Assembly: GCA_037200385.1 (NCBI GenBank)
Contig: JBBCGL010000001.1
Coordinates: forward strand, 3,549,418 to 3,613,417
Reading direction: 5' to 3'
Source: Rhizomicrobium sp.
GTDB taxonomy: Bacteria; Pseudomonadota; Alphaproteobacteria; Micropepsales; Micropepsaceae
DNA length: 64,000 nucleotides
Position 1 is the first letter of the stretch. The number at the start of each line of letters is the position of its first letter. The position numbers were made by a program, and so were the translations under genes. Positions 18,398 to 55,749 of this stretch are shown piece by piece. The notes under the pieces were generated by a model, which did no database searches, was not told the origin of the DNA, and saw only the letters and a list, made by a program, of their open reading frames with translations.

Positions 18398-18405
18398 GGC
18401 GATAG

Positions 18406-19371: not shown

Positions 19372-19381
19372 GGGACGCGCC

Positions 19382-20359: not shown

Positions 20360-20397
20360 AGCCGGTCTTCGCGCCGGACGGTGCTTCGGCGAAGCCT

Positions 20398-21351: not shown

Positions 21352-21550
21352 CGATGATTCCTCTTGCCGGACGAAAACGCTCCGCCGCAGCATGGCCGCA
21401 TCCCCCTCAACAAACCCTTAAGCATATTGCGCCATAACGAGATAAAGGCCTGCAGCGGTTGGCCGAAGTCGCGTTTGGGGCAGGCTGGAACTTCTTTCCT
21501 TCGCAGGGGCGTCCAATTGCTGACGCAATGATGGGCTGGATTCTCGCGTC

Positions 21551-23271: not shown

Positions 23272-23354
23272 AGGCGGTTCTCCACCTGTGCGAGATTGCG
23301 TCGACTTCCCGCCCGTCCTATTCCATCCCCACACGAACCGAAAGGCGCCCCGCG

Positions 23355-24731
23355 ATGCATTCCAGCCTGGTCAAGGCTGCGCGAAACGCAATCCCGCTCC
23401 ATGCCGTCGCGGTCGCCGACCTCGAGCGCTTCCTGGCGCGGCGCGACAAGCGCGAGGCGGCCATTCTCAAAGCCACCGCTTTCAAGGCCGGCGAGGGTGA
23501 ACTCAGGCTGATCGTCGATGCCGCGGGCAAGATCGGCAGTGCCGTGCTCGGCCTGGGCAAGAACAGCGATATCCTGGCGCTCGCGACCTTCTCGGAGCAG
23601 CTTCCGGCCGGAACCTACCGCTTCGCGGACATTCCCGGCGACGTCGGCGAAGCGAATGGCGCGCTCGCCTGGGTGCTCGGCACGTATCAGTTCACCCGCT
23701 ACAAGAAAGGCAAGGCGCTGGCCGCCAAGCTCGTGCTGCCCGGCGGCGTCGATGGCGAAGAGGTCTCGCGCATCGCGGCCGGCGTCTTTCTCGCTCGCGA
23801 CCTGATCAATACGCCGCCCAACGATATGGGACCGGCGGAACTGGCCGATGCGGCGCGCGCGCTCGCCAGGACGCATGGCGCGAAATTCGCCGTCGTCACC
23901 GGCGACGCGCTTCTCAAGCAGAATTATCCGCTGATCCATGCCGTGGGCAAAGGCTCGGAGCGCAGTCCGCGCCTGGCGAGCTTCATCTGGGGCCGCGCGA
24001 ACGCGCCCAAGGTCACGCTGGTCGGCAAGGGCGTTTGCTTCGATACGGGCGGCTACGACCTCAAATCCGCTTCGGGCATGCTCGCGATGAAGAAGGACAT
24101 GGGCGGCGCCGCCACGGTGCTCGGTCTCGCCGGCATGATCATGGACGCGAAGCTCGATGTGCGCCTGCGCGTCCTCGTCCCGGCGGTGGAGAATTCGGTG
24201 TCCGGCTCCGCCTTTCGGCCCAGCGACGTTTTTCCCTCGCGCAAGGGCCTCACGGTGGAGATCGGCAACACCGACGCAGAAGGCCGTCTCGTCCTGGCCG
24301 ACGCTCTGACCGAGGCCGACGCGGACGCACCCGATCTTCTCATCGACATCGCCACCCTCACCGGCGCCGCCCGCACCGCGACGGGTTTCGAGCTGCCGCC
24401 CTTCTTCACCGACGATGAGGCCCTCGCGGCCGAGCTGATGACGCACAGCGCCCGGGTCAACGATCCGATGTGGCGCCTGCCGCTGTGGCGCGGCTATGAG
24501 CCGGTGCTGAGCTCCACCGTCGCCGACCTCAACAACAATCCGAATTACGGCTATGCCGGCGCGATCACCGCCGCGCTCTTCCTGGGCCGCTTCGTGGAGA
24601 AGGCGAAGAGCTGGGTGCATCTCGACATCGCCGCCTGGGTCGACCGCCCCCGCCCCGGCCGCCGCACCGGGGCGGAAGCGACCGCCGCGCGCGCGCTCTA
24701 TTCGCTGATCAGCGCCCGCTACGGCAAATGA
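23355..24731 (+). CDS. M17 family leucyl aminopeptidase
   Basis: 458 aa. The C-terminal catalytic domain has the M17 signature NTDAEGRL (305-312), the metal-binding run VGKGVCFDTGGYDLKSASGM with catalytic Lys/Asp, MKKDMGGAATVLG, and the active-site Arg within AEGRL. The N-terminal regulatory domain is divergent from PepA. Di-zinc cytosolic exopeptidase releasing N-terminal residues. Overlaps the next gene by ATGA, so the two are co-translated. Confidence 0.93.
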   Translation: MHSSLVKAARNAIPLHAVAVADLERFLARRDKREAAILKATAFKAGEGELRLIVDAAGKIGSAVLGLGKNSDILALATFSEQLPAGTYRFADIPGDVGEANGALAWVLGTYQFTRYKKGKALAAKLVLPGGVDGEEVSRIAAGVFLARDLINTPPNDMGPAELADAARALARTHGAKFAVVTGDALLKQNYPLIHAVGKGSERSPRLASFIWGRANAPKVTLVGKGVCFDTGGYDLKSASGMLAMKKDMGGAATVLGLAGMIMDAKLDVRLRVLVPAVENSVSGSAFRPSDVFPSRKGLTVEIGNTDAEGRLVLADALTEADADAPDLLIDIATLTGAARTATGFELPPFFTDDEALAAELMTHSARVNDPMWRLPLWRGYEPVLSSTVADLNNNPNYGYAGAITAALFLGRFVEKAKSWVHLDIAAWVDRPRPGRRTGAEATAARALYSLISARYGK

Positions 24732-41521: not shown

Positions 41522-42349
41522 ATGTCCTTCAGCGTCAACACGAACAGCGGCGCACTTGTCGCGCTGCAATACCTCAATGCCACGCAATCGCAGCTCACGA
41601 CCACCCAGAACGCGATCAACAGCGGCCTGAAGGTGGCATCCGCCAAGGACGACGGCTCGACCTACGCCATCGCCCAGAATCAGCGCGGCGCGGTTGCCGG
41701 CTATTCCGCCGTCACCGACAGCCTCAGCCGTGGCTCGTCCGCGATCGATGTTGCGCTGTCCGCGGGACAGTCGATTTCGGACTTGCTCATCCAGCTCAAG
41801 ACCAAGGCGCTCGCCGCCGCGGACACCTCGCTGGATACGACGAGCCGTCAGGCCCTGAATCAGGACTTCGTCGCGCTTCGCGACCAGATCACGACCATCG
41901 TGAAGAATGCCGTGTTCAACGGCATCAACCTGGTTGACGGCTCGACGACCCAGATCACGGCCCTGGCGTCTTCGGACGGCACGCGCCGCATCACGACCTC
42001 GGCCCAGAAGCTCGCGCTTTCGGGTACGATCGTGACGCTGACGCAGACCGCCTCGATCTCGACGCAGACCAAGGCGTCGACCCTGGTGGCGACCATCCAG
42101 GCGTCGCTCACCAACGTGAACTCCGCTCTCGCCAAGCTTTCCGCCGGCGCGAAGAAGTTCTCGATCCAGGCGACCTTCACCGGCAAGCTGTCGGACACGC
42201 TGACCGCCGGTATCGGCCAGCTGGTCGATGCCAACATGGCGCAGGAAAGCGCCATGCTGCAGTCCTTGCAGGTCAAGCAGCAGCTCGGCGTCCAGGCTCT
42301 GTCGATCGCCAACCAGGCGCCGCAGACCATCCTGTCGCTGTTCAAGTAA
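41522..42349 (+). CDS. Flagellin 1
   Basis: 275 aa, a short flagellin without the variable outer domains. N-terminal D0/D1 helix (SFSVNTNSGALVALQYLNATQSQLTTTQNAINSG) with SAKDDGSTYAIAQNQRG, a Thr/Ser-rich centre (ISTQTKASTLVATIQASLTN), and the C-terminal helix ending NQAPQTILSLFK. No signal peptide, as expected for export through the flagellar system. The Ser/Thr-rich centre offers sites for O-glycosylation by the FlmG-like enzymes. Own promoter and terminator. Confidence 0.95.
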   Translation: MSFSVNTNSGALVALQYLNATQSQLTTTQNAINSGLKVASAKDDGSTYAIAQNQRGAVAGYSAVTDSLSRGSSAIDVALSAGQSISDLLIQLKTKALAAADTSLDTTSRQALNQDFVALRDQITTIVKNAVFNGINLVDGSTTQITALASSDGTRRITTSAQKLALSGTIVTLTQTASISTQTKASTLVATIQASLTNVNSALAKLSAGAKKFSIQATFTGKLSDTLTAGIGQLVDANMAQESAMLQSLQVKQQLGVQALSIANQAPQTILSLFK

Positions 42350-42634: not shown

Positions 42635-43462
42635 ATGTCTTTCAGCGTCAATACCAACTCCGGCGCACTCGTCGCGCTGCAATACCTCAATGCCACGCAG
42701 TCGCAGTTGAACACCACGCAGGCCGCCATCAACAGCGGCCTCAAAGTCGCGTCGGCGCGCGATGACGGCTCGACCTACGCCATCGCCCAGAACCAGCGCG
42801 GCGCGGTTGCCGGCTATTCCGCCGTCACCGACAGCCTCAATCGCGGCGCGTCCGCCGTCGATGTGGCCCTGTCCGCCGGCCAATCGGTCTCGGACCTGCT
42901 CATCCAGCTCAAGACCAAGGCGCTCGCCGCCGCGGACTCCTCGCTGGATACGACGAGCCGCCAGGCCCTCAACCAGGACTTCGTTGCCTTGCGCGACCAG
43001 ATCACGACGATCGTCAAGAATGCGACGTTCAACGGCATCAACCTGGTCGACGGTTCGACGACCCAGATCACGGCGCTGGCCTCGGCCGACGGCGCGCGCC
43101 GCATCACGACCGCGGCCCAGAAGCTTTCGCTTTCGGGTACGATCGTGACGCTGACGCAGACCGCTTCGATCTCGACCCAGGCCAAGGCGTCGACCCTGGT
43201 GGCGACCATCCAGTCCTCGCTGACCAATGTGAACTCCGCTCTCGCCAAGCTGTCGTCCGGCGCGAAGAAGTTCTCGATCCAGGCGACCTTCGCCCAGAAG
43301 CTGTCGGACACGCTGACCGCGGGTATCGGCAACCTGGTCGACGCCAACATGGCGCAGGAAAGCGCGTTGCTGCAGTCCCTGCAGGTCAAGCAGCAGCTCG
43401 GCGTCCAGGCTCTGTCGATCGCCAACCAGGCGCCGCAGACCATCCTGTCGCTGTTCCGTTAA
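42635..43462 (+). CDS. Flagellin 2
   Basis: 275 aa, same length as flagellin 1, with about 20 substitutions, mostly conservative and several swapping Ser/Thr with Ala (for example near residues 102, 150-164, 182 and 208). Same N- and C-terminal helices. A recent tandem duplicate, or a pair kept alike by gene conversion, but with a separate promoter and terminator. The Ser/Thr changes may alter glycosylation sites. Confidence 0.95.
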   Translation: MSFSVNTNSGALVALQYLNATQSQLNTTQAAINSGLKVASARDDGSTYAIAQNQRGAVAGYSAVTDSLNRGASAVDVALSAGQSVSDLLIQLKTKALAAADSSLDTTSRQALNQDFVALRDQITTIVKNATFNGINLVDGSTTQITALASADGARRITTAAQKLSLSGTIVTLTQTASISTQAKASTLVATIQSSLTNVNSALAKLSSGAKKFSIQATFAQKLSDTLTAGIGNLVDANMAQESALLQSLQVKQQLGVQALSIANQAPQTILSLFR

Positions 43463-43618: not shown

Positions 43619-45577
43619 TCAGGCGCCGACCAGGCTGAAACGGAAACGGCGTGGCCCCGCCGCATAGGCGCTGGGCTTGCGCGTGTCGTCGAGCTCGAGC
43701 GCCGACAGCAGGAACTGGCAGAACAGCCGTCCGCCGCTCACCCGGTGCGTCAGCATGCCGAGAAGGCCGGCGGTCGAACGGTCCACTTCGATCCGAACCC
43801 GCGTCGTGCCGTCGCCGATCTCGGCCCAGCCTTCGGTCAAGCCGAGCCCTTGCGAGGACGACACCAGGAACGACACCGGCGCGCCGTGCTCGATGCTCTG
43901 GCCGGCCAGCGCGAAACGCTCCACGGCGTGTCCGCCGTTCTTCGTCGTCAGCGACAGCCGCGTCACGTCGAACGCGTCGCCGAGCAGGGTGACATGGCCG
44001 AGCCGCAGGCTGCCCTTGCCCCAGTCGCTCCAGTGGAACGTCAGATCGAAATCGATGCGCGGCTCGTGCGCCGCGAAGCATAACGTCTTGTCGATCGGTC
44101 CCTTCGCGGTCTCGATCCGGCCGTGCACGAACACGTCGCCATTGTCCGCTGTCCAGCGCCGCGTCGCCGCCCATTCGAGGTCCGTGATCTTATGCTCGCC
44201 GGGCGCCTCGAAGACGCAATCGCCGGTGTACCAGTCGGCCTGCAGCGCGATGTCGTCGAAATGGCCATGCGGCACGCCGCCCAGCGCCGGTCGCGCGTGG
44301 CCGGCGAAGTGCACGCTCTCGAGCGCCAGGCCGCGCCGCCGGTCGAGACGCGCGGCGAGCATGGGAGTCGCGACATCGATCTGTCGCGCCTCCACGGCTT
44401 CTCCCTGCGGCGCAATCACCCCGGGCGCCGGTGCGCTCCAGCGGGCTTCCGCCAGGCGCAACCGCGTACAAAAATCGTTCCAGCGCAGGTCGGTGATGTG
44501 GGTGCGGAAATCGCTCGACCACAGGAAGCAGAGTTCGCGCCACGCCGCGTCGTCTGCGCCGCCGCTGGTCATGCCGCGATAGATCCGCTCGCAGGCGGCA
44601 TTGACGCCAAGGTCGTCGCGGCCGGTCACGGCCCAGCGCGCCAGATTGTATTTGCGCTGTTTCTTCACCGGGATGGGACTTGCCGCCGTCTCCAGCCGCA
44701 AGATCTGCCCGGCCTGCGGCCCGTCCTGCAGCGCGAGAACGTCCGACGGCGCTATTAACGCGAATTCGGCGCCCAGCCGCGCAAAGGCCGCTTCCATGCG
44801 AACCCATTCCGACTCGCCGGTCAGCTTCTCCTCGGTCTTGTAGCGCCCGGGGCGGAAGTCGAAGATCTCGGCGTCGCTGGCATAGACGCACAGCGCCCGC
44901 TGCGCCGGCGCCGCGCAGCCTCGGACATAGTCGAGATAGGGCTCGATCGCGATATCGCGATGCACGAAGCGTTGCAGCTTCTGGAAGGCCACGGTGTTGG
45001 TCCACAAAAGCCCGATGCTGCGTCCGTCGGCGCCCAGCGCGCGTTGCGGCAGATAGCGGGTCTCGGCGGTCCAGTCGGGATGGGCCGTGCCGGGATTGTC
45101 CCAATCCATCGCCAGCGCGCGATAGCCGGCGTCGAGATAGAGCCCGACCAGGCCGCCCGCATAGGCCTGCTCGTTGACCAGCGCGATGGCGGGCGTCGCG
45201 CCCAGCAGGCGCCGATAGACTTCGTTGCCCAGCCGCAGGTTGGCCTCGGTGACCGGGGCCGGCACCAGCGGCCCGATCATCTGGGAATAGCCCGAGCCGA
45301 TCAGCTCGATGCGGCCCGCGCCGAGCAGCGCGCGCGCCTCGGCGATCCAGGCCGGATCGCGCGCCGCGATCTCTTCCAGCGTAAAGCCCGTCGCTTCGAT
45401 GCCGATCGGCCCGTATCTCTCCGCCAGCCGCAGCAGCGGCCAGTAGCAGCGATCGATCACCGCGCCGCGCTGCGCTTCCTCGATGGAGGAGAAGGCGAGA
45501 TTGAGGTGGAACAGCGCGAAGAGCCGCAGCGTTCCGCTCGCCGCGGCGATCTCGCGCTGGCCCAGCGGCGCATTCAT
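43619..45577 (-). CDS. Glycoside hydrolase family 57-like protein
   Basis: 652 aa. The N-terminal 300 residues have a GH57/polysaccharide-deacetylase-like (beta/alpha)7 barrel pattern: LFALFHLNLAFSSIEEAQR, LLGAGRIELIGSGYSQMIGPLVP (Glu in a catalytic-like position) and DAGYRALAMDWDNPG. The rest is a beta-rich C-terminal region with FDLTFHWSDWGKGSLRLGHV. No signal peptide, so cytosolic. Last gene of the minus-strand operon; overlaps the ATP-grasp gene by ATGA. It may trim, transfer or epimerise a sugar intermediate; exact activity unknown. Confidence 0.7.
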   Translation of the reverse strand: MNAPLGQREIAAASGTLRLFALFHLNLAFSSIEEAQRGAVIDRCYWPLLRLAERYGPIGIEATGFTLEEIAARDPAWIAEARALLGAGRIELIGSGYSQMIGPLVPAPVTEANLRLGNEVYRRLLGATPAIALVNEQAYAGGLVGLYLDAGYRALAMDWDNPGTAHPDWTAETRYLPQRALGADGRSIGLLWTNTVAFQKLQRFVHRDIAIEPYLDYVRGCAAPAQRALCVYASDAEIFDFRPGRYKTEEKLTGESEWVRMEAAFARLGAEFALIAPSDVLALQDGPQAGQILRLETAASPIPVKKQRKYNLARWAVTGRDDLGVNAACERIYRGMTSGGADDAAWRELCFLWSSDFRTHITDLRWNDFCTRLRLAEARWSAPAPGVIAPQGEAVEARQIDVATPMLAARLDRRRGLALESVHFAGHARPALGGVPHGHFDDIALQADWYTGDCVFEAPGEHKITDLEWAATRRWTADNGDVFVHGRIETAKGPIDKTLCFAAHEPRIDFDLTFHWSDWGKGSLRLGHVTLLGDAFDVTRLSLTTKNGGHAVERFALAGQSIEHGAPVSFLVSSSQGLGLTEGWAEIGDGTTRVRIEVDRSTAGLLGMLTHRVSGGRLFCQFLLSALELDDTRKPSAYAAGPRRFRFSLVGA

Positions 45578-46791
45578 GCGGTGACGATCCTCAGGCAGGC
45601 CAGCGCGTCGTTGGCGGCGGCCAGGGCGGCCTCGCGCGACGGGCCGGTCGTCAGCACCATCGCGGCGGAAGGTCGCTTGTCGCCCGCCGCCGGGATGACG
45701 TCGCCGGGCGCGGCCGTCACGATCAGCTCCGCGACGCCCGCGATGCTGCGCGCCGCTTCGGCGCCTTCGACCGAGACGACGCGTCCGGCGGCGGGAAAGG
45801 CGTAGCGTTGGATCACCGGCGTGACATGGACCGGTTCGAGCTCGGCCGCCGTCACCGTCTCGCCGAGCGCGAGCCTGATCGCGGCGCCGACGAAATCGAC
45901 GCCGGTGTTGAGCGGGATCTCCCGCGTGCAGAAGAAGCCGCCCGACAGCCGCGCCGCAAGCTCGATCACATAGGGCTCGCCCTTATGGACGACGATATCG
46001 CCCTTCACCGTGCCGTTGGTCACGCCCAGCGCGGCCGCGGCGCGGGCCACGACGTCCTTCACCTTCGCCTGGATCTCGGCCGACAGATGGCTGGGCAGGT
46101 CGCCGCCATTCTCGATGAAGAACGGCGCATAGCGCTCGAGATATTCGTAGTTGCGGTCGGAGAACCCCGGCGTGAAGCAATGCCCGTCCACGACAACCGA
46201 TTCGGTCGAGACCTGCGGTCCGTCGAGATATTGCTCGACCATCACGCGTTCGCTCGGCGAATGCGAGCGGGCGAACAGGAATGCCTTGTCGAGGTCGGCG
46301 ACTTGCGCGACGCGCTGCACGCCGCGCGAGCCGCGGCTGTCCACCGGCTTGATCACCAGGTCGCGGCCGCGCGCGATGGCGACGCGCTGCAGATCCTGCG
46401 GTGTCGCCACTTCCGCGAACCACGGCACCGGCACGCCGCATTCGGCAAAGCGTCGCTTCATTGCAAGCTTGTCGCTCGCGAGCTCTGCCGTGGCGCGTGA
46501 AATGCCAGGCAGGCCGAGGCGCTGCGCCACCGTCGCGGTGGTGACCGGTGCGTCGGCGGCGACGCAGATGACGCCATCGATCTTGCGGATCTTGCGGTTG
46601 TAGCGTTCCGCCGCGGCAGCGGTCTCCGTCGCGCCATAGACGTCTGCGATCAGGCAGGAATCGGCGAAGGCGAAGCCCGGCGCATGCGGATCGCGGTCGG
46701 AAACCACGACGGTGTGGCCCATCTCCTTGGCGCGTCTGGCGGCGTCGGCTGCTTCGATTCCACCCGAGATGATCAGGAGCGTCTTACCCAT
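45574..46791 (-). CDS. ATP-grasp ligase (carbamoyl-phosphate-synthase-like)
   Basis: 405 aa. Preceding Rossmann-like domain (LLIISGGIEAADAARRAKEMGHTVVVSDRDPHAPG), then the ATP-grasp fold: DKLAMKRRFAECGVPVPW, DLVIKPVDSRGSRGVQRV, VMVEQYLDGPQVSTESVVVDG, and GTVKGDIVVHKGEPYVIELAARLSGGFF carrying the metal-binding Glu. Such enzymes join an acid and an amine. In this operon it could aminoacylate an amino sugar or make an amide on the glycan precursor; that is inference. Confidence 0.85.
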   Translation of the reverse strand: MGKTLLIISGGIEAADAARRAKEMGHTVVVSDRDPHAPGFAFADSCLIADVYGATETAAAAERYNRKIRKIDGVICVAADAPVTTATVAQRLGLPGISRATAELASDKLAMKRRFAECGVPVPWFAEVATPQDLQRVAIARGRDLVIKPVDSRGSRGVQRVAQVADLDKAFLFARSHSPSERVMVEQYLDGPQVSTESVVVDGHCFTPGFSDRNYEYLERYAPFFIENGGDLPSHLSAEIQAKVKDVVARAAAALGVTNGTVKGDIVVHKGEPYVIELAARLSGGFFCTREIPLNTGVDFVGAAIRLALGETVTAAELEPVHVTPVIQRYAFPAAGRVVSVEGAEAARSIAGVAELIVTAAPGDVIPAAGDKRPSAAMVLTTGPSREAALAAANDALACLRIVTA

Positions 46792-46806
46792 GCGAGGATT
46801 GGCCCA

Positions 46807-47559
46807 TCAGAAATACAGCCCGCCATTGACGTTGATGGTCTGCGCGGTGATGTAGGATGCCGCATCGCCGGCCAGGAAGACGACGGCGTCGGCGACCTCG
46901 TCGGTGCGCCCCAGGCGCTTCAGGATGATGCCCTCCGCCGCCTTCTGGACGCTCGCCGCCTGCAAACCCGCATTGCCCATGTCCGATGCGATCAAGCCCG
47001 CCGCCACGACGTTCGAGCGCACATGCGAGGCCGCGCCGAACCGGGCGATGACCTGCGCGAGCGAGATCAGACCGGCCTTCGACGCCGCATAATGCGCGGT
47101 GCGCGGCCCGCCATACTGGCCGCTGACCGATCCGACATGGACGATCGAGCCGCCGCCCGCATCCGCCAGCAGCGGCAGGAACACCTGGGCGCAGATGAAC
47201 GGGCCTTTCAGGTTCGTGTCGACGATCAGGTCCCAGTCCGCGTCCTCGATCTTGTCGAAGTCGGTCGGTTTGTTGATCCCGGCATTGTTCACCAGGATGG
47301 AGATCGGCCCGAAATTTCGGGCTTCCTTCGCCATCGCCTCGACGCTGGCCCGGCTGGTGACGTCCATCGGCAGCGCCAGCGCGCGGCGCCCGAGCTTGAC
47401 GATCTCGGCCGCGACGGTATCCGCCTCGACCCGTTTCTCGCGATAGCTGAACACCACGTCCGCGCCGGCCTGTGCCAGGCCGATCGCGATGGCGCGCCCG
47501 ATGCCGCGGCTGCCGCCGGTGACGACGGCGTTCCTGCCGGAAAGCGAGAAGCGGTTCAT
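46807..47559 (-). CDS. Short-chain dehydrogenase/reductase
   Basis: 250 aa, classical SDR. Cofactor motif VTGGSRGIGRAI, NNAGIN, catalytic Ser in VHVGSVSGQYGG, YAASK with catalytic Tyr and Lys, and a typical C-terminus ITAQTINVNGGLYF. FabG-like, but in a sugar operon, so a ketosugar or aldehyde reductase is plausible. Overlaps the transketolase C-subunit gene by 4 bases (ATGG region 47556-47559). Confidence 0.88.
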   Translation of the reverse strand: MNRFSLSGRNAVVTGGSRGIGRAIAIGLAQAGADVVFSYREKRVEADTVAAEIVKLGRRALALPMDVTSRASVEAMAKEARNFGPISILVNNAGINKPTDFDKIEDADWDLIVDTNLKGPFICAQVFLPLLADAGGGSIVHVGSVSGQYGGPRTAHYAASKAGLISLAQVIARFGAASHVRSNVVAAGLIASDMGNAGLQAASVQKAAEGIILKRLGRTDEVADAVVFLAGDAASYITAQTINVNGGLYF

Positions 47560-48530
47560 GGCCGCGCCGTCTTGCGGGCGATCACGCGCCGCACCGCCTC
47601 GGCGATATGGCCGGCACCGATGCCGAAATGCTCGGCAAGCTCGTCCGGCTCGCCCGAGGCGCCGAACACGTCCTTCACGCCGACGAATTCGATTGGGGCG
47701 GGATGCGTCGCCGCGAGGGCTTCCGCCACCGCGCCGCCGAGGCCGCCATGGATGTTGTGGTCTTCCGCCGTGACGACGGCGCCGGTCTCGGCGGCGCAAC
47801 GGGCCAGGAGTTCGCTGTCGATGGGCTTGATCGTCGGCATGTTGACGACCCGGACCGACAGGGATTCGCCGGCCAGCCGCTCGGCCGCCTCCAGCGCGCG
47901 GCCGACTTCGACACCGCAGGCGACGATGGTCGCGTCGCTGCCGTCGCGGATGATCTGGCCCTTGCCGATCTCGAATCGGTGGTCGTCGCCGAACAGCCGC
48001 TTGGCCGGGCTGCGGCCGGTGCGCATATAGACCGGTCCGTCGAATTCCAGGATCGCGCGGGTCGCCAGCGCCATCTCGATCGGATCGGCGGGCGAGATCA
48101 CCGTCATGCCGGGGATCGCGCGGAACGCGGCGATATCCTCGAGCGCCTGGGCCGAGCCGCCGTCGGGCCCGACGTCGAGGCCGGGATGGCTGGCCACGAT
48201 CTTGGCATTGCGCCGCGCATAGGCGAGGGACAGCCGCGCCTGCTCGATCGCGCGCAGGCAGAACACCGCGAAGGTCGTCACCACCGGGATAAGGCCGGTG
48301 GCGGCAAGCCCGCCGGCCGCCGCCATCATGTTCTGCTCGGCGATGCCGAATTGCAGCAGGCGCTCGGGGTGGCTCTTGCGGAAATGATGCACGCCGGTGC
48401 CGCCGGCGATGTCGGCATCGAGCACGACGACCTTGGGGAATTCGTCGGCGAGGGCCGACAGCGTCTTGCCGAAGGCTTCGCGCAGGCTGTCGCCGTTCGA
48501 GCCGATCAGGGCAGGGGCTTCAGCAGCCAT
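47556..48530 (-). CDS. Transketolase C-terminal subunit (split transketolase)
   Basis: 324 aa with the pyrimidine-binding and C-terminal domains: VVVLDADIAGGTGVHHF, RLLQFGIAEQNMMAAAGGLAATGLIPVVTTFAVF (activating Glu in AEQN), SHPGLDVGPDGGSAQALEDIAAFR, and DATIVACGVEVGRALEAAE. It needs the separately encoded N-terminal subunit. Split transketolases are common in secondary-sugar clusters, where they move two-carbon units. The 11-base overlap with its partner gene supports a complex. Confidence 0.88.
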   Translation of the reverse strand: MAAEAPALIGSNGDSLREAFGKTLSALADEFPKVVVLDADIAGGTGVHHFRKSHPERLLQFGIAEQNMMAAAGGLAATGLIPVVTTFAVFCLRAIEQARLSLAYARRNAKIVASHPGLDVGPDGGSAQALEDIAAFRAIPGMTVISPADPIEMALATRAILEFDGPVYMRTGRSPAKRLFGDDHRFEIGKGQIIRDGSDATIVACGVEVGRALEAAERLAGESLSVRVVNMPTIKPIDSELLARCAAETGAVVTAEDHNIHGGLGGAVAEALAATHPAPIEFVGVKDVFGASGEPDELAEHFGIGAGHIAEAVRRVIARKTARP

Positions 48531-49416
48531 CGAGCAGATCCTTGATTTCGCCGCGGCCGGCGCCCAGCGATTGCAGCGCCTCTTCGGCCTGCTCGCGCGT
48601 CAGCTTCACGCTGCCGTGCCAGGCGGGCACGTTTTCCATATACTTCACGCCCTTGCCCTTGACGGTATGGGCGATGATCACGGACGGGCGGCCCTGCGTG
48701 ACGCCGGCGCGCCGCAAGGTCGAGAGGATTTCGGGAATGTCGTGCCCGTCGATCTCGGCGATGCCCCAGTCGAAGGCGCGCCACTTCGCCGCCAGGGGCT
48801 CCAGCCGCATGATCGCGGCGTTGCGGTTGTCGCTCTGCAGCTTGTTGTAGTCGATGATGACGCACAGATTGTCGAGGCCGTGATGGGCCGCGCACATCGC
48901 GGCCTCCCACACTTCGCCCTCCTGCAATTCGCCGTCGCCGAGCAGCGTGTAGACGCGGGCCGGGATGTTCTGCAGCTTCAAGCCCATCGCCATGCCCAGC
49001 GCGACCGAGAAGCCCTGGCCGAGGGAGCCGGTGCTGGTCTCCACCCAGGGCAGGTCGAGCACATGGGGATGGCCCTGGAACGGGCTGTTCAGCTTGCGCA
49101 GCCGCAGCGCGGCCTTGGCGTCGCAGAAGCCGTAATGCGCCGCCACCGCATAGAGCGCGGGCGCCGCATGGCCCTTGGAGAGCACGAAGCGGTCGCGCGC
49201 CGGATCGTCGATCGCCGAGGGCCAGAAGTTCAGCTCGGCGCCGAACAGGCAGGCGAGGATATCGGCGGACGACAGCGCGCCGCCGGGATGGCCCGAGCCG
49301 GCGTGGTAGATCGACGCGATCGTGTGCTTGCGCACGAAGGCGGCGGCGATCGCGAGCTTGGTCTGGAGATCCTGCTCGGTCGTCGTCTCGGTGATGGATT
49401 TGAGCGTCAGCGCCAT
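48520..49416 (-). CDS. Transketolase N-terminal subunit (split transketolase)
   Basis: 298 aa ThDP-binding half: ASIYHAGSGHPGGALSSADILACLF, FVLSKGHAAPALYAVAAHYG, GSLGQGFSVALGMAMG, and the ThDP motif GDGELQEGEVWEAAMCAAHHGLDNLCVIIDYN. Partner of the next gene. Housekeeping transketolase is a single chain of about 660 aa, so this split pair is more likely dedicated to the sugar made in this cluster. Confidence 0.88.
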   Translation of the reverse strand: MALTLKSITETTTEQDLQTKLAIAAAFVRKHTIASIYHAGSGHPGGALSSADILACLFGAELNFWPSAIDDPARDRFVLSKGHAAPALYAVAAHYGFCDAKAALRLRKLNSPFQGHPHVLDLPWVETSTGSLGQGFSVALGMAMGLKLQNIPARVYTLLGDGELQEGEVWEAAMCAAHHGLDNLCVIIDYNKLQSDNRNAAIMRLEPLAAKWRAFDWGIAEIDGHDIPEILSTLRRAGVTQGRPSVIIAHTVKGKGVKYMENVPAWHGSVKLTREQAEEALQSLGAGRGEIKDLLDGC

Positions 49417-49424
49417 GCGTGCTC

Positions 49425-50597
49425 CTACGCCGCCAGGCGCATGCGCGCCTGGGCGATGAGATCCGTGTAGAGGATGATTTCCGCGCCGGGCGTCAGGCGG
49501 GTCACTTCGTCCGCGATCTCACCGGCGAAGTCGCGGCTCATCACCACCACCACCCCGGGATCGGCCCCGGCGAGCGCCTCCGGGCCGGCCAGGGTGCAGC
49601 CATGCCGCTCGCCGACATGCGCCTTCAGATGCTTGTCGATCAGCAGCGTCAGCATCGTCGCGTCGAACCGTCCATGGGTCACGAGGCTGTCGAACAGCCG
49701 TCCGGCGCCCCACATCGCGACGCGGCGCGGCGCCAGCCGCAGCAACTCGCTCGCCACCGCGATCAGCGCCGCCATGTTGCGGGCGCGGTTCGCCATATAG
49801 GTCGCGATCAGATCCCGGGCGCGGCCGGCCTCGTCGAGATCGACCCCCGCATGGCTCGGTGCGCGCGCCGTCTTCCGCGCGACGAAGAAGAGGTTGCTGC
49901 GATCCTTGGGATCGGGGCGTTCCAGGATCGTGAACCCTGCCGCCGTGATCATCCGCGTCAGGGTACGCTCGGAGAAATGATAGAGATGCTTGTCGATGAA
50001 CCACTCCTCGACGATGTCGTCGCTCGCCAGCAGGGCGGTGTTGGGCGCGTCCAGGACGAGGAGGCCGCCATCCTTCAGGGTCCTGTGGTGGTCGGCCAGC
50101 GTGCGCGCCGGATGGATCAGGTGCTCGATGGTGTGGCAGGAGTGAATTGCGTCGAAGCGGCGCGTCTCGAACGCCGTGTTCTCGATGCGCGCCTGGATCA
50201 ACTCGGTGCGCGGCAGGCCGGCGCAGGCGGCGGCAACGCGCTCGTCGGGCTCGACGGCGGTGAGACGGATGTGCGGCGCGGCGTCCAGCAGCGCGTGCGC
50301 GAAGCTGCCGCGGTTGGAGCCGACGTCGAGCAAGGTGGATTCTGCCGTGAAATCGCCGTGGCGGCGCAGGGCGTCGATCGCGATCTGGGTGCGGAAACCC
50401 TTGCCATAGCGGACATTGCCCCAGTCGGCACCCGCCGAGACGGCCGCCGGCGCCCGCGCGGCGCGGTCGACGCGCGGCAGGCTCTGCAACAATCCGCACG
50501 CCGCACAGAGATAGACCGTCAGGCCGCGGGGAGAGCGTTCCGGCTTATAGACGGGTTCGAGCGCCGCACGCAGGCAGAGCTCGCAGGTGTCGCCCAT
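49425..50597 (-). CDS. C-methyltransferase-like protein (zinc-binding N-domain, SAM core, Rossmann C-domain)
   Basis: 390 aa. A four-cysteine N-terminal segment (CELC near residue 5, CAAC near 32) is like the putative zinc-binding domain of sugar C-methyltransferases. The SAM core follows (LLDVGSNRGSFAHALLDA, DAIHSCHTIEHLIHPARTL, KDGGLLVLDAPN). A C-terminal Rossmann-like domain (VAMWGAGRLFDSLV, VVVVMSRDFAGEIADEV) is like the C-methyltransferase C-terminal domain. TylC3/NovU relatives methylate keto-sugars at carbon. It precedes the split transketolase genes by 8 bases. Confidence 0.8.
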   Translation of the reverse strand: MGDTCELCLRAALEPVYKPERSPRGLTVYLCAACGLLQSLPRVDRAARAPAAVSAGADWGNVRYGKGFRTQIAIDALRRHGDFTAESTLLDVGSNRGSFAHALLDAAPHIRLTAVEPDERVAAACAGLPRTELIQARIENTAFETRRFDAIHSCHTIEHLIHPARTLADHHRTLKDGGLLVLDAPNTALLASDDIVEEWFIDKHLYHFSERTLTRMITAAGFTILERPDPKDRSNLFFVARKTARAPSHAGVDLDEAGRARDLIATYMANRARNMAALIAVASELLRLAPRRVAMWGAGRLFDSLVTHGRFDATMLTLLIDKHLKAHVGERHGCTLAGPEALAGADPGVVVVMSRDFAGEIADEVTRLTPGAEIILYTDLIAQARMRLAA

Positions 50598-50645
50598 GGG
50601 TTTGGCCCCAGAAGTATTCCGGTAACCATCTTCGGACGGGCTTGG

Positions 50646-51557
50646 TTAATAATTCACCACATATTCGGGGCGCTCGGCATAGCCGAGCTGTCGTTGCATC
50701 GGCGCCGCGATCCGCTCGAAGGATTCGCGCTCCCGCGCATCGAGCAGGCGGTCCTCCGGCCGGTTGACGTTGTGCGGCCGGGCGAAAGCGGCAAAGGCCG
50801 CGTCGCGATAGGGAAGGCCGAGGAATCCATAAAGCCCCTTCACCGCCTCCGGCGACGCCTGCAGCTCCTCGAGCCGGACGAACATCTGCCGCGCGCGCGG
50901 CAGGCGGGCGAGTTCGGCCAGGATGACGCGATTGATCTCGGCCCAATGCCAGCAGATGCGTCCGAACTGGTCGAAGCCGCGGAACGGTCCGGCGGCGGGA
51001 TCGCCGCGGCGCGGCACCGGCCACCAATATTTCTTCTCCGGCGGCGGTGTCGGCACACTCGACGGATCGTCGCAATGCGCCTGCAGGATCGCCGTCGAGC
51101 GGTCGTCGTAGCACTCGTCGCCCAGCTTGCGGAAATAGGATCCCGCGACCTTGCGCCCATCGCGCACGAGATGGACGAACTTCGCCGCCGGCAGGACCTG
51201 TGCCAGCTCCGGGATCAGCCAGGAGAGCTTGTTCGACGAATCGCCCCAATGCGCCGCCTCGCTGTAATGGACCGCGGCCGCATGTGTTTCGGTCAGTATC
51301 TCCCGGGCCTGGGCATCCGTCGCCAGGCCCAGATAGCGCCGGACGGCGAGCGGCTGCGCGATCTGCACCATGTACTCGTGCTGCATGTCCATGCCGGGCA
51401 CCGCCGACAGCACCTTGTGCAGCATGGCGGTGCCGGAGCGACCGCTCGACACGATGAAGAAGGGCTGTGTCGTCTTGCTCAAGGCTGGGCCGCCGGGATC
51501 GTCATGTCCGCAAATTCGGCGCCCATGGGCGCCCCTTGTTAACGCTCTTTTAGCCAT
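50646..51557 (-). CDS. Sulfotransferase family protein
   Basis: 303 aa from ATG 51557; the first 25 residues look non-native and neither start has a good RBS, so a TTG at 51482 (278 aa, beginning SKTTQPFFIV) may be the real start. PAPS-binding 5' loop FFIVSSGRSGTAMLHK, the 3'-phosphate region KFVHLVRDGRKVAGSYF, and a C-terminal FLGLPY segment are visible. It would transfer sulfate from PAPS to an acceptor, possibly the glycan of this locus. Upstream member of the minus-strand operon, divergent from the neuB-like gene. Confidence 0.8.
   Translation of the reverse strand: MAKRALTRGAHGRRICGHDDPGGPALSKTTQPFFIVSSGRSGTAMLHKVLSAVPGMDMQHEYMVQIAQPLAVRRYLGLATDAQAREILTETHAAAVHYSEAAHWGDSSNKLSWLIPELAQVLPAAKFVHLVRDGRKVAGSYFRKLGDECYDDRSTAILQAHCDDPSSVPTPPPEKKYWWPVPRRGDPAAGPFRGFDQFGRICWHWAEINRVILAELARLPRARQMFVRLEELQASPEAVKGLYGFLGLPYRDAAFAAFARPHNVNRPEDRLLDARERESFERIAAPMQRQLGYAERPEYVVNY
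51539..51553. promoter_or_regulatory. Degenerate CtrA-like box between the divergent sugar operons
   Basis: TTAA-CGCTCTT-TTAG, one mismatch from TTAA-N7-TTAA, between the sulfotransferase and the neuB-like gene. Weak evidence alone; noted because perfect boxes occur at two other divergent promoters in the window. Confidence 0.3.
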
Positions 51558-51594
51558 GACCGATTTAGAAAACGTTAAGTTTAGGGAGCGTCGC

Positions 51595-52467
51595 ATGACG
51601 CCACGCACGCCGATCTTCATCGCCGAAGCCTCCAGCAACCACGACCGCGATCTCGGCCGCGCGCTCGCCTTCGTCGACGCCGCCGCCGCCGCCGGCTGCG
51701 ACGCGGTGAAATTCCAGCTCTTCAAGATCGACCGGATGTTCGCGCCCGAGATTCTCGCGCAGAGCGCAAAGCATCGCGCCCGCCGCCAGTGGGAGCTGCC
51801 GCCGGCCCATCTGGCGCCGCTGGCCGAGCGCTGCCTGGCGCGGGGCATCCAGTTCTCCTGCACGCCCTTTTATCTGGAGGCGGTCGAGGAATTGCGGCCC
51901 TTCGTCGCCTTCTACAAGGTCGCGTCCTACGAATTGCTGGTGACGCCGCTGCTCGAGGCCTGCGCCGCGACGGGCAAGCCGGTGGTCCTGTCGACCGGCA
52001 TGGCGACGATGGACGAGATCGCGGCCGCCGCGGACACGCTCAAGCGCGCCGGCGCCTCCGACATCACCCTGCTGCATTGCGTCTCGGCCTATCCGACCCC
52101 GGCGGCGGAGGCCAATCTCGCGGCGATCGCCGCGATCCGCGACGCGACGGGCTGCAAGGTCGGCTGGTCCGACCATACGCGCCGTCCCGCCGTGGTCGAG
52201 CGTGCCGTGCATCGCTGGGGCGCGGCGGCCGTCGAATTCCATCTCGATCTCGAAGGCGAGGGTGCCGAATACGCCGCCGGCCATTGCTGGCTGCCGGGCG
52301 AGATCGCGCCGGTCATCGCCCGCATCCGCGAATCCGCCGTCGCCGACGGTGCCGGATTCAAGGGCCCGCAGCCTTCCGAACTCTCGGACCGCGACTGGCG
52401 CGCCGATCCCGTCGACGGCATGCGCCCGCTCCGCGCCATCCGTGCCGTATGGGAGCCCGCCGCGTGA
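51595..52467 (+). CDS. NeuB/PseI-family nonulosonate synthase lacking the SAF domain
   Basis: 290 aa; ATG at 51595 with AGGGAG upstream. TIM-barrel NeuB domain: FIAEASSNHDRDLGRALAFVDAAAAAGCDAVKFQ, FSCTPFYLEAVEEL, FYKVASYELLVTPLLEACA, VLSTGMATMDEI, LLHCVSAYPTPAAEANL, and GWSDHTRRPAVVERAV. These enzymes condense PEP with an aldose to give nonulosonic acids (sialic, pseudaminic or legionaminic). The usual C-terminal SAF/antifreeze domain (about 60 residues) is absent. Translationally coupled (GTGA) to the fused activating enzyme. Confidence 0.85.
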   Translation: MTPRTPIFIAEASSNHDRDLGRALAFVDAAAAAGCDAVKFQLFKIDRMFAPEILAQSAKHRARRQWELPPAHLAPLAERCLARGIQFSCTPFYLEAVEELRPFVAFYKVASYELLVTPLLEACAATGKPVVLSTGMATMDEIAAAADTLKRAGASDITLLHCVSAYPTPAAEANLAAIAAIRDATGCKVGWSDHTRRPAVVERAVHRWGAAAVEFHLDLEGEGAEYAAGHCWLPGEIAPVIARIRESAVADGAGFKGPQPSELSDRDWRADPVDGMRPLRAIRAVWEPAA

Positions 52468-54248
52468 GCGCACAGCCCCGCATCGTCGCCATCATCCAGG
52501 CGCGCATGGGTTCGACGCGCCTGCCCGGCAAGGTCCTGCGTCCCATCGCGGGTCATCCGTTGCTCTGGCACATCGTCCACCGCCTGAAGAAATCGCAGCG
52601 GATCGACGCGGTCGCGGTCGCCACCACGACCAACCCGCTCGACGACGCGATCGCCGAATTCGGCCGCGACAACGGCGTCGCCGTCATCCGCGGTCCGGAG
52701 GACGACGTGCTGGCGCGCTTCGCCCTCGCTGCCGAGGCGACCGGCGCCGATGTCATCGTCCGGGTCTCGTCGGATGCGCCCTTCATCGACGCGGCCTTCG
52801 TCGACCACCTGCTGACGGCCCTGCTGGAACAGGGCGGCGACTTCGTGCTCATGGAGGAGGGCGCGACGACCGCGCATGAGGGCGTCGATCCCTTCACCCG
52901 CCGCGGCCTCGACAAGCTGATGATGGACGCGCACGCCGATCCGGTGGCGCGCGAGCATGTCACCGGCTATTTCAAGCTGCATCCGGGCTTCGTGCCCATC
53001 GCCCGCGCACCGGCCTATCCGCGGCTGGCGCGCGAGGGCGGGCGCCTGACGATCGACACGCCGGACGATCTCGCCTTCATCGAAGCCGTCCATGTCCGGC
53101 TGGAAGCCAAGGCGGGCGAGGCCTCGCTTAGCGACATCCTGATGCTGCTGGAGCGCGAACCGGCGCTGCGCGGCATCAACGCCCATGTGCGGCAGAAGCC
53201 GATCGCGGTCCGCGGTGGCTTGGCGCTGATCCGCTGCGACGGCGGCGGCGCGTTCGGCTACGGCCATGTCAAGCGCATGGTGGCGCTGGCGCGGGCCTTG
53301 CGCGACGCGCAGGGTATCGGCGCAGTGTTCGCGCTCAACGGATCCGAAGACGCCGGCACGCCCATCCGCAATGCCGGCTTCGCGGTGACCCGGCTGGGTC
53401 GAGAGGGTCTCGAAAGCCTCATCGGCGTCCATGCTCCCGACCTGCTGCTGCTCGACGGCCGCGAAGGTCCGGATCGCGAGGGGCTTGCCGAGCTGGCGCG
53501 GCGCGTCCCGCTTACCGCCGTGATCGACGACGGCGCGGACCGCCGCCTCGCCGCCGATCTGGCCTATTATCCGCCGGTGCCGCAGGCCTTTGCGCTGGAT
53601 TGGACTGCGTCGCGCTGCGTGCCGCGCATCGGCTGGGAATGGTCGATCCTGGGTTCGAACCCGGCAGCGAGTCGTCCGCGCCCGAACGGCCGGCCGGTGC
53701 TGCTCGTGACCATGGGCGGCAGCGATCCGTTCGGCTTGACGCTGCGCAGCGCCCGCGCCCTGGCGCGGCTCGATCCGCTGTTCCGCGCCCGCTTCGTCAT
53801 CGGGCCGGGCATGGCCGGGCGCGGCGCGGTGGCGCGGCAGATCGTGTCCCTCAATCCCAATTTCGAAACCATCGAGGGCGCCGCGGGCCTCGCCACGGAG
53901 TTCGCCGCTGCCGATCTCGCGCTGACGGCGTTCGGGGTCACGGCCTATGAACTCGCCGCGGCCGGCGTGCCTGCGCTCTATCTGGCGCTCAATGAAGACC
54001 ATGCCCGCTCGGCCTCTGCTTTCGAGAAAGCGGGCATCGGCCTGTCGCTGGGCGTCGCGGCGGATGTCGACGACGCAACGATCGCCCGCGCGGTCGCGCG
54101 CCTCCTGGGCGATACGGCACGCCGCCGCGCGATGCGTACCGCGGGCCTCATGACGATCGACGGCAACGGCGCGGGCCGCATCGCGGCCGACCTGGCTGCC
54201 GCCCTGGCCGAGCGCCGCGCGGGCGTGCCGCTCACAGCCGCGCGATAG
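52464..54248 (+). CDS. Fusion of SpsF/PseF-type cytidylyltransferase and PseG-type nucleotide-sugar hydrolase
   Basis: 594 aa with GTG start overlapping the neuB-like stop. Residues 1-245 are a sugar nucleotidyltransferase (IIQARMGSTRLPGKVLRPI, DVIVRVSSDAPFIDAAFVDHLL, GRLTIDTPDDLAFIEAV). Residues 250-594 are a GT-B-like PseG/SpsG domain (LIRCDGGGAFGYGHVKRM with the catalytic-type His268, LLLDGREG, LVTMGGSDPFGLTLR, FAAADLALTAFGVTAYELAAAGVPALYLAL). PseG hydrolyses a UDP-sugar to the free sugar, and PseF charges the nonulosonate with CMP, so one chain would act before and after the synthase encoded upstream. Confidence 0.88.
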   Translation: MSAQPRIVAIIQARMGSTRLPGKVLRPIAGHPLLWHIVHRLKKSQRIDAVAVATTTNPLDDAIAEFGRDNGVAVIRGPEDDVLARFALAAEATGADVIVRVSSDAPFIDAAFVDHLLTALLEQGGDFVLMEEGATTAHEGVDPFTRRGLDKLMMDAHADPVAREHVTGYFKLHPGFVPIARAPAYPRLAREGGRLTIDTPDDLAFIEAVHVRLEAKAGEASLSDILMLLEREPALRGINAHVRQKPIAVRGGLALIRCDGGGAFGYGHVKRMVALARALRDAQGIGAVFALNGSEDAGTPIRNAGFAVTRLGREGLESLIGVHAPDLLLLDGREGPDREGLAELARRVPLTAVIDDGADRRLAADLAYYPPVPQAFALDWTASRCVPRIGWEWSILGSNPAASRPRPNGRPVLLVTMGGSDPFGLTLRSARALARLDPLFRARFVIGPGMAGRGAVARQIVSLNPNFETIEGAAGLATEFAAADLALTAFGVTAYELAAAGVPALYLALNEDHARSASAFEKAGIGLSLGVAADVDDATIARAVARLLGDTARRRAMRTAGLMTIDGNGAGRIAADLAAALAERRAGVPLTAAR

Positions 54249-55749
54249 TCTTCTCGAACGCGCTCGTCCAATCGCCGCGGACGTCGGGCATCATCAATTC
54301 GCAAGCCGGTGCGAAAGGCTCGCGGCCCTGGCCCAGCGCCGTCCAGCTCGTATCGTAGAGCACCTTGTAGGTGTCGACGCCGGTTCCCGCCGCCAGCCAG
54401 GAGACGGCGGTCGGCGCGCTCACCACGACATCGAGCGACGCCAGCAGCGCGGCGGTCCGGTCGAGCGCGTTCTTCTGGTCCAGGTCCGGAAGCATGACGA
54501 TAGTGCGGCCGCTCTGCGCCGCCAGCGCTTCGACCTCGTCGTCCGAAGCATCGTATTGCACGCTGATCACCGTGCCGGGCACTCGGGCGATAAAGGCCGC
54601 CCACGCCTCTCGCGGCGCATATTGCAAGGCGCGATGGCCCAGCACATTGCCGCTGCGCCAGCACACGCCGATGAACGGCCCCGGTCCGAAGCCCGTAAGC
54701 AAGCCGCCCCAGCGGGCCATGTCCATCGGGTCCGGTTTGAGGAAATCGTTGGCCTTCGGGAACGCCTCGAGGCTGCCGCGCAGGATTTTCGGCAGGCTGC
54801 CCATCTCGGTGAAGGCATTGGCGCCGCCCGCCTGCTTGAGCCAGCCATAGCGCGCCCGATGGACGGCGCCCCTGGTCTCCATGTCGGACGGATGCACCGC
54901 GACGCCGGGAAACGAGCGCGCGAACAGGCCGACGAGGCGCGGCTCGCATTCCAGCACGATCGCGCCGCCGTCGCGCGCCGCGCGCGCGGCAAGGTCGGGA
55001 ATCATGCTGGCGAACAGGATCTGGTCGCCGATGCCTTGTTCGGCGGTCACCAGAAGCCGCGTGCGCTTGAGGCTGCCGCCGGTCCAGCGCGTCAGCTTGT
55101 GGTCGGGCACCGGGACCTTGGCGAGGTTCAGCCGCGCGCCGTAATCGCGCCAGCCGTCTTTCAGGTTTCCCGCCAGCAGATGCAGGATGGCGCGATTCAA
55201 GCGCGCCTGGGCGTTGTCGGGCTCGTGGGCGATCGCCTTGCTGTAGAGCGCGAGCGCCTCGCCGGTCTCGCCGGCATCGGTCAGGATATCGGCAAGATTG
55301 CTCAGCGCCGCCGCATAGTCCGGCTTGCGGGCCAGCGCTTCGCGGTAATGCACGGCCGCCCGCTCGAAATCGCCCATCTCGCGCCAGGTCGAGCCCAGCG
55401 TCAGCCACAATTCGGGCGCCTGCGGGTCGCGCGCCAGGGCCGGTGCCAGCAGCGCCTGTGCCGCTTGCGGCTGTCCTTCGGCGCGCAGCAGATTGGCGAG
55501 GCTGACGATGGCTTCGAGCCGCGCCGGGTCCCGGTGCAGCACCCGGCGATAGAATTCCGCTGCGGGACCCGCCATGCCCAGCGCGCGCGCCGTGTTGCCG
55601 AGCGCGAACAGCACCCGCGCATCGTCCGGCTTTGCCGACAGCGCCTGCTCGTACCGCGAAATGGCTTCGGCGTGACGGCCGAGACCGGAGAGTTTCAGGC
55701 CCTGCTCATAGGGATCGGCGAATGCATGCATGTACGGACTTTGGCCCAT
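54232..55749 (-). CDS. TPR-glycosyltransferase fusion, second FlmG-like paralogue
   Basis: 505 aa. TPRs over about residues 5-205 (ARVLFALGNTARALGMAGPAAEFYRRVLHRDPARLEAI and similar), then a GT-B-like C-terminal half: LLVTAEQGIGDQILFASMIPDL, GPFIGVCWRSGNVLG, LASLDVVVSAPTAVSWLAAGTG. These are the same landmarks as in the protein at 38623-40383, with 80 fewer residues. Its 3' end overlaps the SpsF-PseG gene by 17 bases on the opposite strand. Likely a protein glycosyltransferase with its own target choice through the TPRs. Confidence 0.8.
   Translation of the reverse strand: MGQSPYMHAFADPYEQGLKLSGLGRHAEAISRYEQALSAKPDDARVLFALGNTARALGMAGPAAEFYRRVLHRDPARLEAIVSLANLLRAEGQPQAAQALLAPALARDPQAPELWLTLGSTWREMGDFERAAVHYREALARKPDYAAALSNLADILTDAGETGEALALYSKAIAHEPDNAQARLNRAILHLLAGNLKDGWRDYGARLNLAKVPVPDHKLTRWTGGSLKRTRLLVTAEQGIGDQILFASMIPDLAARAARDGGAIVLECEPRLVGLFARSFPGVAVHPSDMETRGAVHRARYGWLKQAGGANAFTEMGSLPKILRGSLEAFPKANDFLKPDPMDMARWGGLLTGFGPGPFIGVCWRSGNVLGHRALQYAPREAWAAFIARVPGTVISVQYDASDDEVEALAAQSGRTIVMLPDLDQKNALDRTAALLASLDVVVSAPTAVSWLAAGTGVDTYKVLYDTSWTALGQGREPFAPACELMMPDVRGDWTSAFEKTIARL

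Follow-up and report, generated by a model that had tools for sequence, protein, structure and literature searches.

A nine-gene block in a 64,000-nt stretch of the Rhizomicrobium sp. genome (family Micropepsaceae; assembly GCA_037200385.1, contig JBBCGL010000001.1, positions 3,549,418-3,613,417 of the forward strand; hereafter the window) combines a NeuB-type synthase with a split transketolase, an ATP-grasp protein and other enzymes, and is situated among flagellar genes. With slightly better than even confidence, we propose that this block, together with the pseB and pseC genes located elsewhere in the same genome, makes a cytidine monophosphate (CMP)-activated pseudaminic-type nonulosonate carrying a long polyhydroxy, O-methylated and perhaps sulfated N-acyl group, and that FlmG-like enzymes put this product on flagellin. 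Held at that strength, the proposal draws support from the adjacency of PseC-PseB and the block genes in Solidesulfovibrio and in many family genomes, a separate clade of NeuB proteins, the swap of thiamine pyrophosphate (TPP) enzymes between loci, the flagellin glycan of the Shewanella sfm system, the likeness of the ATP-grasp protein to a ligase, and the lack of PseH matches over the cut-off in the family.

Organization and conservation of the block

Seven minus-strand genes, encoding a GH57-like protein, an ATP-grasp protein, a short-chain dehydrogenase/reductase (SDR), the C-terminal and N-terminal halves of a transketolase (TktC and TktN), a methyltransferase and a sulfotransferase, face a plus-strand pair composed of NeuB and a gene for a fused cytidylyltransferase and PseG-like protein. 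The spacing between adjacent genes ranges from -17 to +48 bases. An earlier annotation of the window, made from the DNA letters alone (the original prediction), had described these nine genes, and all of them were recovered at the same places and on the same strands, with refined starts and with support from Pfam and NCBIfam. Its placement of the block was also borne out: the block lies between the flagellins and FlgI-type genes (flagellar names assigned by eye), two flagellins flank it on one side, and FlmG-like tetratricopeptide repeat (TPR) genes, so labelled by their architecture and place, are found on both sides. The GC content of the block genes, overall and at third codon positions (GC3), is about that of four other window genes and thus gives no sign of recent import.

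To follow the neighbourhood beyond the window, 20 regions of up to 20 kb each were fetched from the family, 18 of which contain NeuB. The combination of TktN, TktC, SDR and ATP-grasp with NeuB and the fused gene, for which the original prediction had suggested a search, is kept in 15 of the 18; in these, the order of the ATP-grasp, GH57-like, SDR, TktC and TktN genes is unchanged, as is their orientation towards NeuB and the fused gene. The remaining three (L086, L087 and L088) keep SDR, ATP-grasp and NeuB, together with another TPP enzyme. Among the same 18 regions, a methyltransferase of the window type is present in 11, the sulfotransferase in nine and PseB or PseC in 10, while 14 show flagellin matches and 16 show FlmG-like genes. 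The other two regions, L095 and L096, lack NeuB and contain ATP-grasp relatives that are 55% and 45% identical, respectively, and no other block gene save a weak SDR match in L096.

The gene set recurs far outside the family. On a plasmid of Solidesulfovibrio carbinolicus, the order PseC-PseB-GH57-ATP-grasp-methyltransferase-TktC-TktN-SDR-methyltransferase-PseG-PseF faces NeuB. Besides the block, the locus from this plasmid (L032; pDCAR1, NZ_CP026539.1) holds another transketolase N/C pair along with a number of radical SAM genes, at 519-2235 and 19993-24501. Flagellar genes, recognized by eye or by weak matches, neighbour the block in Shewanella (L103), Methylomicrobium (L126), Desulfocapsa (L115) and a Firmicutes bin (L100). 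In a draw of 299 genomes from the phylum, the sole NeuB match at E<=1e-60 was the window's own genome, and the block is therefore rare or patchy there. The possibility that the genes are chance neighbours was rejected on the grounds of the conserved gene set in Solidesulfovibrio and in the family regions, and of the counts given in the next section.

A clade of NeuB proteins without the SAF domain

To compare gene neighbourhoods more broadly, the best 80 of 529 NeuB relatives in a collection of species genomes were analyzed; this set is not a census. By identity to the first query row, 49 loci fall at 46-66% and 31 at <=40%, the latter serving as controls that were chosen by likeness to the query and are not random NeuBs. 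In a tree of 85 rows, from which one clade row (L144) was omitted for length, a long branch, supported at 100/100, separates the 46-66% group from the rest. The clade rows are labelled as coming from more than 10 phyla, although many of them stem from metagenome bins and may be mislabelled. Two such bins with clade NeuBs, L121 (titled Helicobacter pylori PMSS1) and L139 (titled Bifidobacterium breve), are probably mistitled.

The SAF domain was detected by Pfam in none of the 49 clade NeuBs, in contrast to 13 of the 31 others. An ATP-grasp gene was found nearby in 34/49 clade loci versus 1/31 others, a GH57-like gene in 27/49 versus 0/31, a transketolase or IlvB-type gene in 28/49 versus 4/31, methyltransferases in 34/49 versus 6/31 and a PseG-like gene in 42/49 versus 10/31 (incomplete loci included throughout), whereas PseF-like genes were more frequent among the others (5/49 versus 13/31). 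PseB at >=80 bits was found at 21 clade loci versus three others. Nine of the 49 clade loci come from the window's own family; excluding them and requiring at least 8 kb on both sides left 21 clade and 17 control loci, in which ATP-grasp was present in 18 versus one, the GH57-like gene in 14 versus none, and any TPP enzyme in 14/21 versus 3/17.

The window NeuB, which is the sole NeuB match of its genome, is far from the standard synthases. It reaches 165 bits against the PseI cut-off of 340.25, its NCBIfam scores being less than half the respective cut-offs, and the Pfam search finds in it no SAF domain, the domain that a PseI synthase carries at its C-terminus. We suggest that loss of SAF may make room for a bulky acyl group.

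Apparently exchangeable carbon-building enzymes

The TPP slot of the clade loci is occupied by three kinds of enzymes. The split transketolase is found in the window, in Solidesulfovibrio and, by match, in L110. IlvB-type enzymes take its place in L086 and L088 (Pfam), in L087 (75% identical to that of L086), in L112 and, by 40% identity, in L115; in L086-L088, which belong to the window's genus, the IlvB-type gene stands beside SDR, ATP-grasp and NeuB in three of three loci and beside GH57 in two of three. A DXS-type enzyme is encoded in Shewanella L103, where it scores over the DXS cut-off, and in L102, L113, L116 and L145, as judged by 43-63% identity. The L126 locus, from Methylomicrobium sp. 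wino1, shows no TPP match in view and has instead, at 5716-7964, a glucuronate isomerase (576 bits, over the cut-off) and an SDR, proposed here as another route to a sugar acid; the isomerase of L120 is 77% identical to it. A class-III aminotransferase is present in L107.

NeuB, ATP-grasp and the GH57-like gene are mostly constant across the loci while the carbon enzymes vary, which looks like a set of exchangeable ways to make the carboxylic acid for one ligase. Tentatively, and with somewhat less than even confidence, we extend this to a widespread and so far unnamed branch of nonulosonate synthesis, in which the N-acyl group would be assembled by exchangeable cassettes (split transketolase, IlvB-type, DXS-type, uronate isomerase or aminotransferase), attached by a dedicated ATP-grasp ligase and then tolerated by the SAF-less NeuB clade, so that the cassette would predict the flagellar acyl chain.

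PseB and PseC outside the block

The original prediction had noted that PseB and PseC are not encoded in the window. This is right for the window, but both are encoded in the genome and seem to belong to the system. In the 5.0-Mb, single-contig genome, both are encoded at C1:4577645-4579784, approximately 1 Mb from the block, and both score over their curated cut-offs. Their neighbours are an aldo/keto-reductase-like gene and, nearby, sulfate-activation genes (both labels by eye).

Across 96 family genomes, clade NeuB was found in 61, and of these 58 have the ATP-grasp gene, 59 the GH57-like gene and 51 PseC; the corresponding numbers for the 35 genomes without clade NeuB are nine, eight and 12. 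Among the 55 family genomes with both genes, 33 have PseC at most 20 kb from the ATP-grasp gene; counting only the 36 in which the two share a contig, the figure is again 33. The GH57-like gene and PseC are likewise no more than 20 kb apart in 39 of 41 genomes with both on one contig (57 have both). PseH scored over its cut-off in none of the 96 genomes, with weaker matches in 68.

Four genomes (G054, G083, G077 and G047) have the GH57-like gene without clade NeuB; in the first three it is on the contig of PseC and may therefore belong to the PseB/PseC side and not to the acyl cassette. In G056:C10, G068:C1 and G011:C78, the NeuB match contains one stop codon, attributable to decay, a sequencing error or a match running past the gene end.

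Proposed pathway

PseB and PseC would produce UDP-4-amino-4,6-dideoxy-L-AltNAc. The ATP-grasp protein, proposed from its sequence to acylate the 4-amino group, would replace PseH by forming an amide between this group (later N7) and a short carboxylic acid that bears or yields an aldehyde. The two-part transketolase would add a two-carbon ketol unit to the aldehyde, the SDR would reduce the new ketone, and the methyltransferase would O-methylate the chain. The PseG-like domain would then remove UDP, the SAF-less NeuB would add phosphoenolpyruvate (PEP), and the cytidylyltransferase domain would give the CMP-sugar.

This order was considered against the flagellin modification system sfmABCDE (SO_3261-SO_3265) of Shewanella oneidensis (PMC3765264). 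Its products are a NeuB-domain protein of 290 aa, an IlvB TPP enzyme of 581 aa, an SDR of 255 aa, a methyltransferase of 395 aa and an ATP-grasp protein of 412 aa. S. oneidensis also has PseB and PseC, and the authors report no clear PseH, PseG, PseI or PseF (PMC3765264). Deletions of sfmA-D leave flagellin at the predicted unmodified mass on gels, whereas deletion of sfmE, the ATP-grasp gene, gives a slightly smaller mass shift and keeps motility (PMC3765264). These phenotypes fit a ligase-first order, other orders being possible. Without the ligase, the unacylated amine would go on through the pathway, with a smaller shift and retained motility; without the TPP enzyme, SDR or methyltransferase, an incomplete chain would remain that later enzymes refuse, resulting in no modification.

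The core of the Shewanella glycan is a pseudaminic-like 274-Da residue (ion C11H19N2O6+) with one N-acetyl and a basic nitrogen, and its substituent of 236-264 Da is nitrogen-free C9H16O7 with zero to two more CH2 and an O-methyl (PMC3765264). The calculated sums of 510.206, 524.222 and 538.237 agree with the measured values of 510.209, 524.230 and 538.240 (PMC3765264). The free acid C9H18O8 has one double-bond equivalent, and an open-chain polyhydroxy acid therefore fits. In the mass spectrometer, a 4-hydroxyacyl amide could shed its chain by lactone formation, leaving the observed basic amine. The extension is probably on the N-acyl group and not on the sugar backbone or a branch. In this respect we depart from the original prediction, which had inferred a chain- or branch-extended nonulosonate; its broader picture of an extended nonulosonate outside the standard Pse and Leg gene lists, probably destined for flagellin and possibly sulfated, is retained.

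If the proposed pathway is true, it assigns functions to four Shewanella sfm enzymes whose roles were open in 2013, points to candidates for the PseF, PseG and PseH functions missing from Shewanella, allows the side chain of a flagellar glycan to be predicted from the genes present in several phyla, and extends transketolase chemistry to the lengthening of an amide-bound chain on a sugar nucleotide.

Conflicting evidence and alternative explanations

Several observations weigh against the proposed pathway. Seven family genomes with clade NeuB (G031, G043, G050, G051, G060, G062 and G095) have no match to PseC (E<=1e-90) or PseB (E<=1e-30), in a search whose PseB positive controls, G035 and G029, were recovered. 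Five of these genomes have a completeness of 93% or more, and the block is otherwise intact in L080 (G031) and L094 (G051); the amino sugar of these seven would have to come from elsewhere. At the level of loci, neither PseB (22/49 versus 9/31) nor PseC (17/49 versus 16/31) is significantly enriched by clade NeuB. SAF is also absent from 18 of the 31 non-clade NeuBs, seven of the 21 full-flank clade loci have no TPP enzyme and three no ATP-grasp, and the PseG-like part of the fused protein scores 79 bits with TIGR03590, below the cut-off of 153.55. The GH57-like protein is a close companion of both the NeuB clade and PseC, and has no place in the model.

The replacement of PseH is a further point of doubt. 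Among the genomes of 42 of the 80 loci, PseH scores over the cut-off in one of 27 with clade NeuB and in one of 15 with other NeuBs, and Caulobacter FlmH is only 26% identical to PseH (PMC7591256). Given also the weaker matches in 68 of the 96 family genomes, the PseH model is too strict to prove absence. In G023, a PseH-like match lies 3 kb from PseC, and by our reading of the match table G023 stands alone among the clade-NeuB family genomes in having a weak PseH-like match at most 20 kb from the block.

Some of these observations would be accommodated if the transketolase, SDR and methyltransferase built an aldose that NeuB condenses with PEP to a backbone-extended or branched ulosonic acid, PseB and PseC serving another glycan or feeding this product in some species only. 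This explanation, which is close to the original prediction and which we consider unlikely, agrees with the seven genomes lacking PseB/PseC matches, with the long branch and low scores of the NeuB clade, and with its missing SAF, a domain that reaches into the active site of ordinary synthases (PMC7591256). However, PseB and PseC stand beside the block in many relatives and at several far loci, and at some clade loci a glucuronate isomerase or class-III aminotransferase is encoded with no TPP enzyme visible. The Shewanella glycan, moreover, has the formula of a mono-N-acetyl diamino nonulosonate, with the extra carbons in a separate nitrogen-free part (PMC3765264).

It is improbable, in our estimate, that the block makes ordinary pseudaminic acid, with the transketolase, ATP-grasp, methyltransferase and sulfotransferase decorating it after transfer or serving an unrelated pathway. 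In its favour, the genome encodes PseB, PseC, NeuB, a cytidylyltransferase and a PseG-like domain, but the ATP-grasp, GH57-like, methyltransferase and TPP genes accompany the NeuB clade far more than they do other NeuBs. Single loss of the Shewanella TPP enzyme, SDR or methyltransferase also gives an unmodified flagellin mass, which would not be expected of late decoration (PMC3765264).

Least probable, and indeed very doubtful, is a product destined for lipopolysaccharide, capsule or exopolysaccharide: pseBC are near sugar-nucleotide and sulfate-activation genes and not flagellar ones (by eye) and sulfotransferases are common in polysaccharide loci, yet the position of the block between flagellins and FlgI-type genes, the FlmG-like genes on both of its sides, and the flagellin, FlmG-like and flagellar neighbours in relatives and at the four distant loci all argue for flagellin.

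Proteins of the block and neighbouring genes

The features of the locus are collected in Table 1.

Table 1. Genes of the nonulosonate block and its surroundings (coordinates within the window)
Feature	Coordinates	Strand	Support and remarks
GH57-like protein, 652 aa	43619..45577	-	PF03065, E 3.3e-11
Predicted ATP-grasp amide ligase, 405 aa	45574..46791	-	ATP-grasp and LAL_C2 (L-amino-acid-ligase C-terminal domain)
SDR, 250 aa	46807..47559	-	PF13561/PF00106; start refined from start codons
TktC, transketolase C-terminal half, 324 aa	47556..48530	-	PF02779 and PF02780 (pyrimidine and C half)
TktN, transketolase N-terminal half, 298 aa	48520..49416	-	PF00456
S-adenosylmethionine (SAM) methyltransferase, 390 aa	49425..50597	-	PF13489, E 3e-19
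Sulfotransferase (Sulfotransfer_3)	50646..51557	-	PF13469, E 1.5e-17; start may be 51482
NeuB-type synthase without SAF, 290 aa from 51595	51595..52467	+	PF03102 only; upstream ATG at 51556
Fused cytidylyltransferase (PseF/SpsF-like) and PseG-like UDP-sugar hydrolase, 594 aa	52464..54248	+	PF02348, E 3e-34
FlmG-like TPR protein, candidate flagellin glycosyltransferase	54232..55749	-	N-terminal TPR repeats; label by architecture and place
Second FlmG-like TPR protein	38623..40383	-	TPR repeats; homologous to the 54232-55749 protein
Flagellin 1, probable acceptor (by eye)	41522..42349	+	92% identical to flagellin 2; start from tblastn match
Flagellin 2, probable acceptor (by eye)	42635..43462	+	Open reading frame

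The ATP-grasp protein has as its nearest PDB sequence the amide-forming L-amino acid ligase BL00235 (3vot, E 7e-20), and TktC the split transketolase of Carboxydothermus (6yaj, E 2e-87). TktN carries the thiamine-diphosphate motif GDG-x28-N, TktC an IAEQN loop and the fused protein a GxGHxxR stretch, GYGHVKR at 265, in its PseG-like part; we take all three to be of catalytic importance. The transketolase was rejected as a housekeeping enzyme, as the genome has another transketolase-type gene (821-aa open frame), which is the next best match of TktN and only 33% identical to it. The label of C-methyltransferase in the original prediction was also rejected, the matches at E<=1 being to general SAM-methyltransferase families apart from one weak Anamorsin_N match. 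In the GH57-like protein, E136, D235 and E237 are invariant across 17 aligned homologues, and a comparison with PDB sequences gave no match at E<=0.1.

The two FlmG-like proteins share 30% identity across 498 aligned positions, and Pfam gave TPR repeats but no transferase match in the C-terminal part. Further along, a 922-aa protein encoded at 55849-58617 among flagellar genes contains SBBP beta-propeller repeats (E 3e-6).

Comparison with known systems

The block is a conserved version of the Sfm-type pathway for flagellin nonulosonates, one that we did not find described in the open literature. In a literature search on transketolase with nonulosonic acid and flagellin, transketolase was found solely as a pentose-phosphate gene. 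For the cluster itself, or for ATP-grasp enzymes in nonulosonate pathways, only PMC3765264 was judged relevant within the open literature; earlier work may exist, for example the second 2013 Shewanella study cited there. The original prediction could name no characterised pathway with this gene set, but sfmABCDE nearly matches it, an IlvB-type TPP enzyme replacing the split transketolase (PMC3765264).

Like the window, Sfm combines SDR, methyltransferase and ATP-grasp genes in one block with a NeuB-domain protein of the same length, and PseB and PseC are present in the genome. The NeuBs of four other Shewanella genomes fall inside the 100/100 clade of the window, S. oneidensis itself being likened by published sizes and domains. 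The window differs from Sfm in its split transketolase, where SfmB is IlvB-type, in its added sulfotransferase and in having FlmG-like instead of Maf-type transferases. In Shewanella oncorhynchi (L103), a GH57-like protein and a fused cytidylyltransferase/PseG-like protein are encoded near NeuB, at 17017-20632. The fused protein is 25% identical to that of the window across 598 aligned positions and carries GLGHYKR, with no PseG model matched; judged by sequence, the two proteins are candidates for the missing PseF and PseG of Shewanella.

Caulobacter shares with the window's genome PseB and PseC, a PseG-like protein, NeuB, a cytidylyltransferase and a TPR-type FlmG-like gene beside flagellins. 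In contrast to Caulobacter, the window has no clear FlmH/PseH and a NeuB without SAF, and adds ATP-grasp, transketolase, SDR and methyltransferase genes; mutation of the SAF arginine (R322A) inactivates the Caulobacter NeuB (PMC7591256). Carboxydothermus hydrogenoformans has a split transketolase (6yaj, 6yak) that consists of two chains, as does the window pair, which differs by its location in a sugar locus.

The flagellin glycan of Treponema denticola is reportedly of 450.2 Da and composed of a 274-Da pseudaminic-like residue and an N7 2-methoxy-4,5,6-trihydroxyhexanoyl group, C7H12O5. If this unconfirmed structure is correct, its chain is of the kind expected from a ligase, transketolase, SDR and methyltransferase, and the Shewanella unit exceeds that reported for T. 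denticola by C2H4O2, one two-carbon ketol unit.

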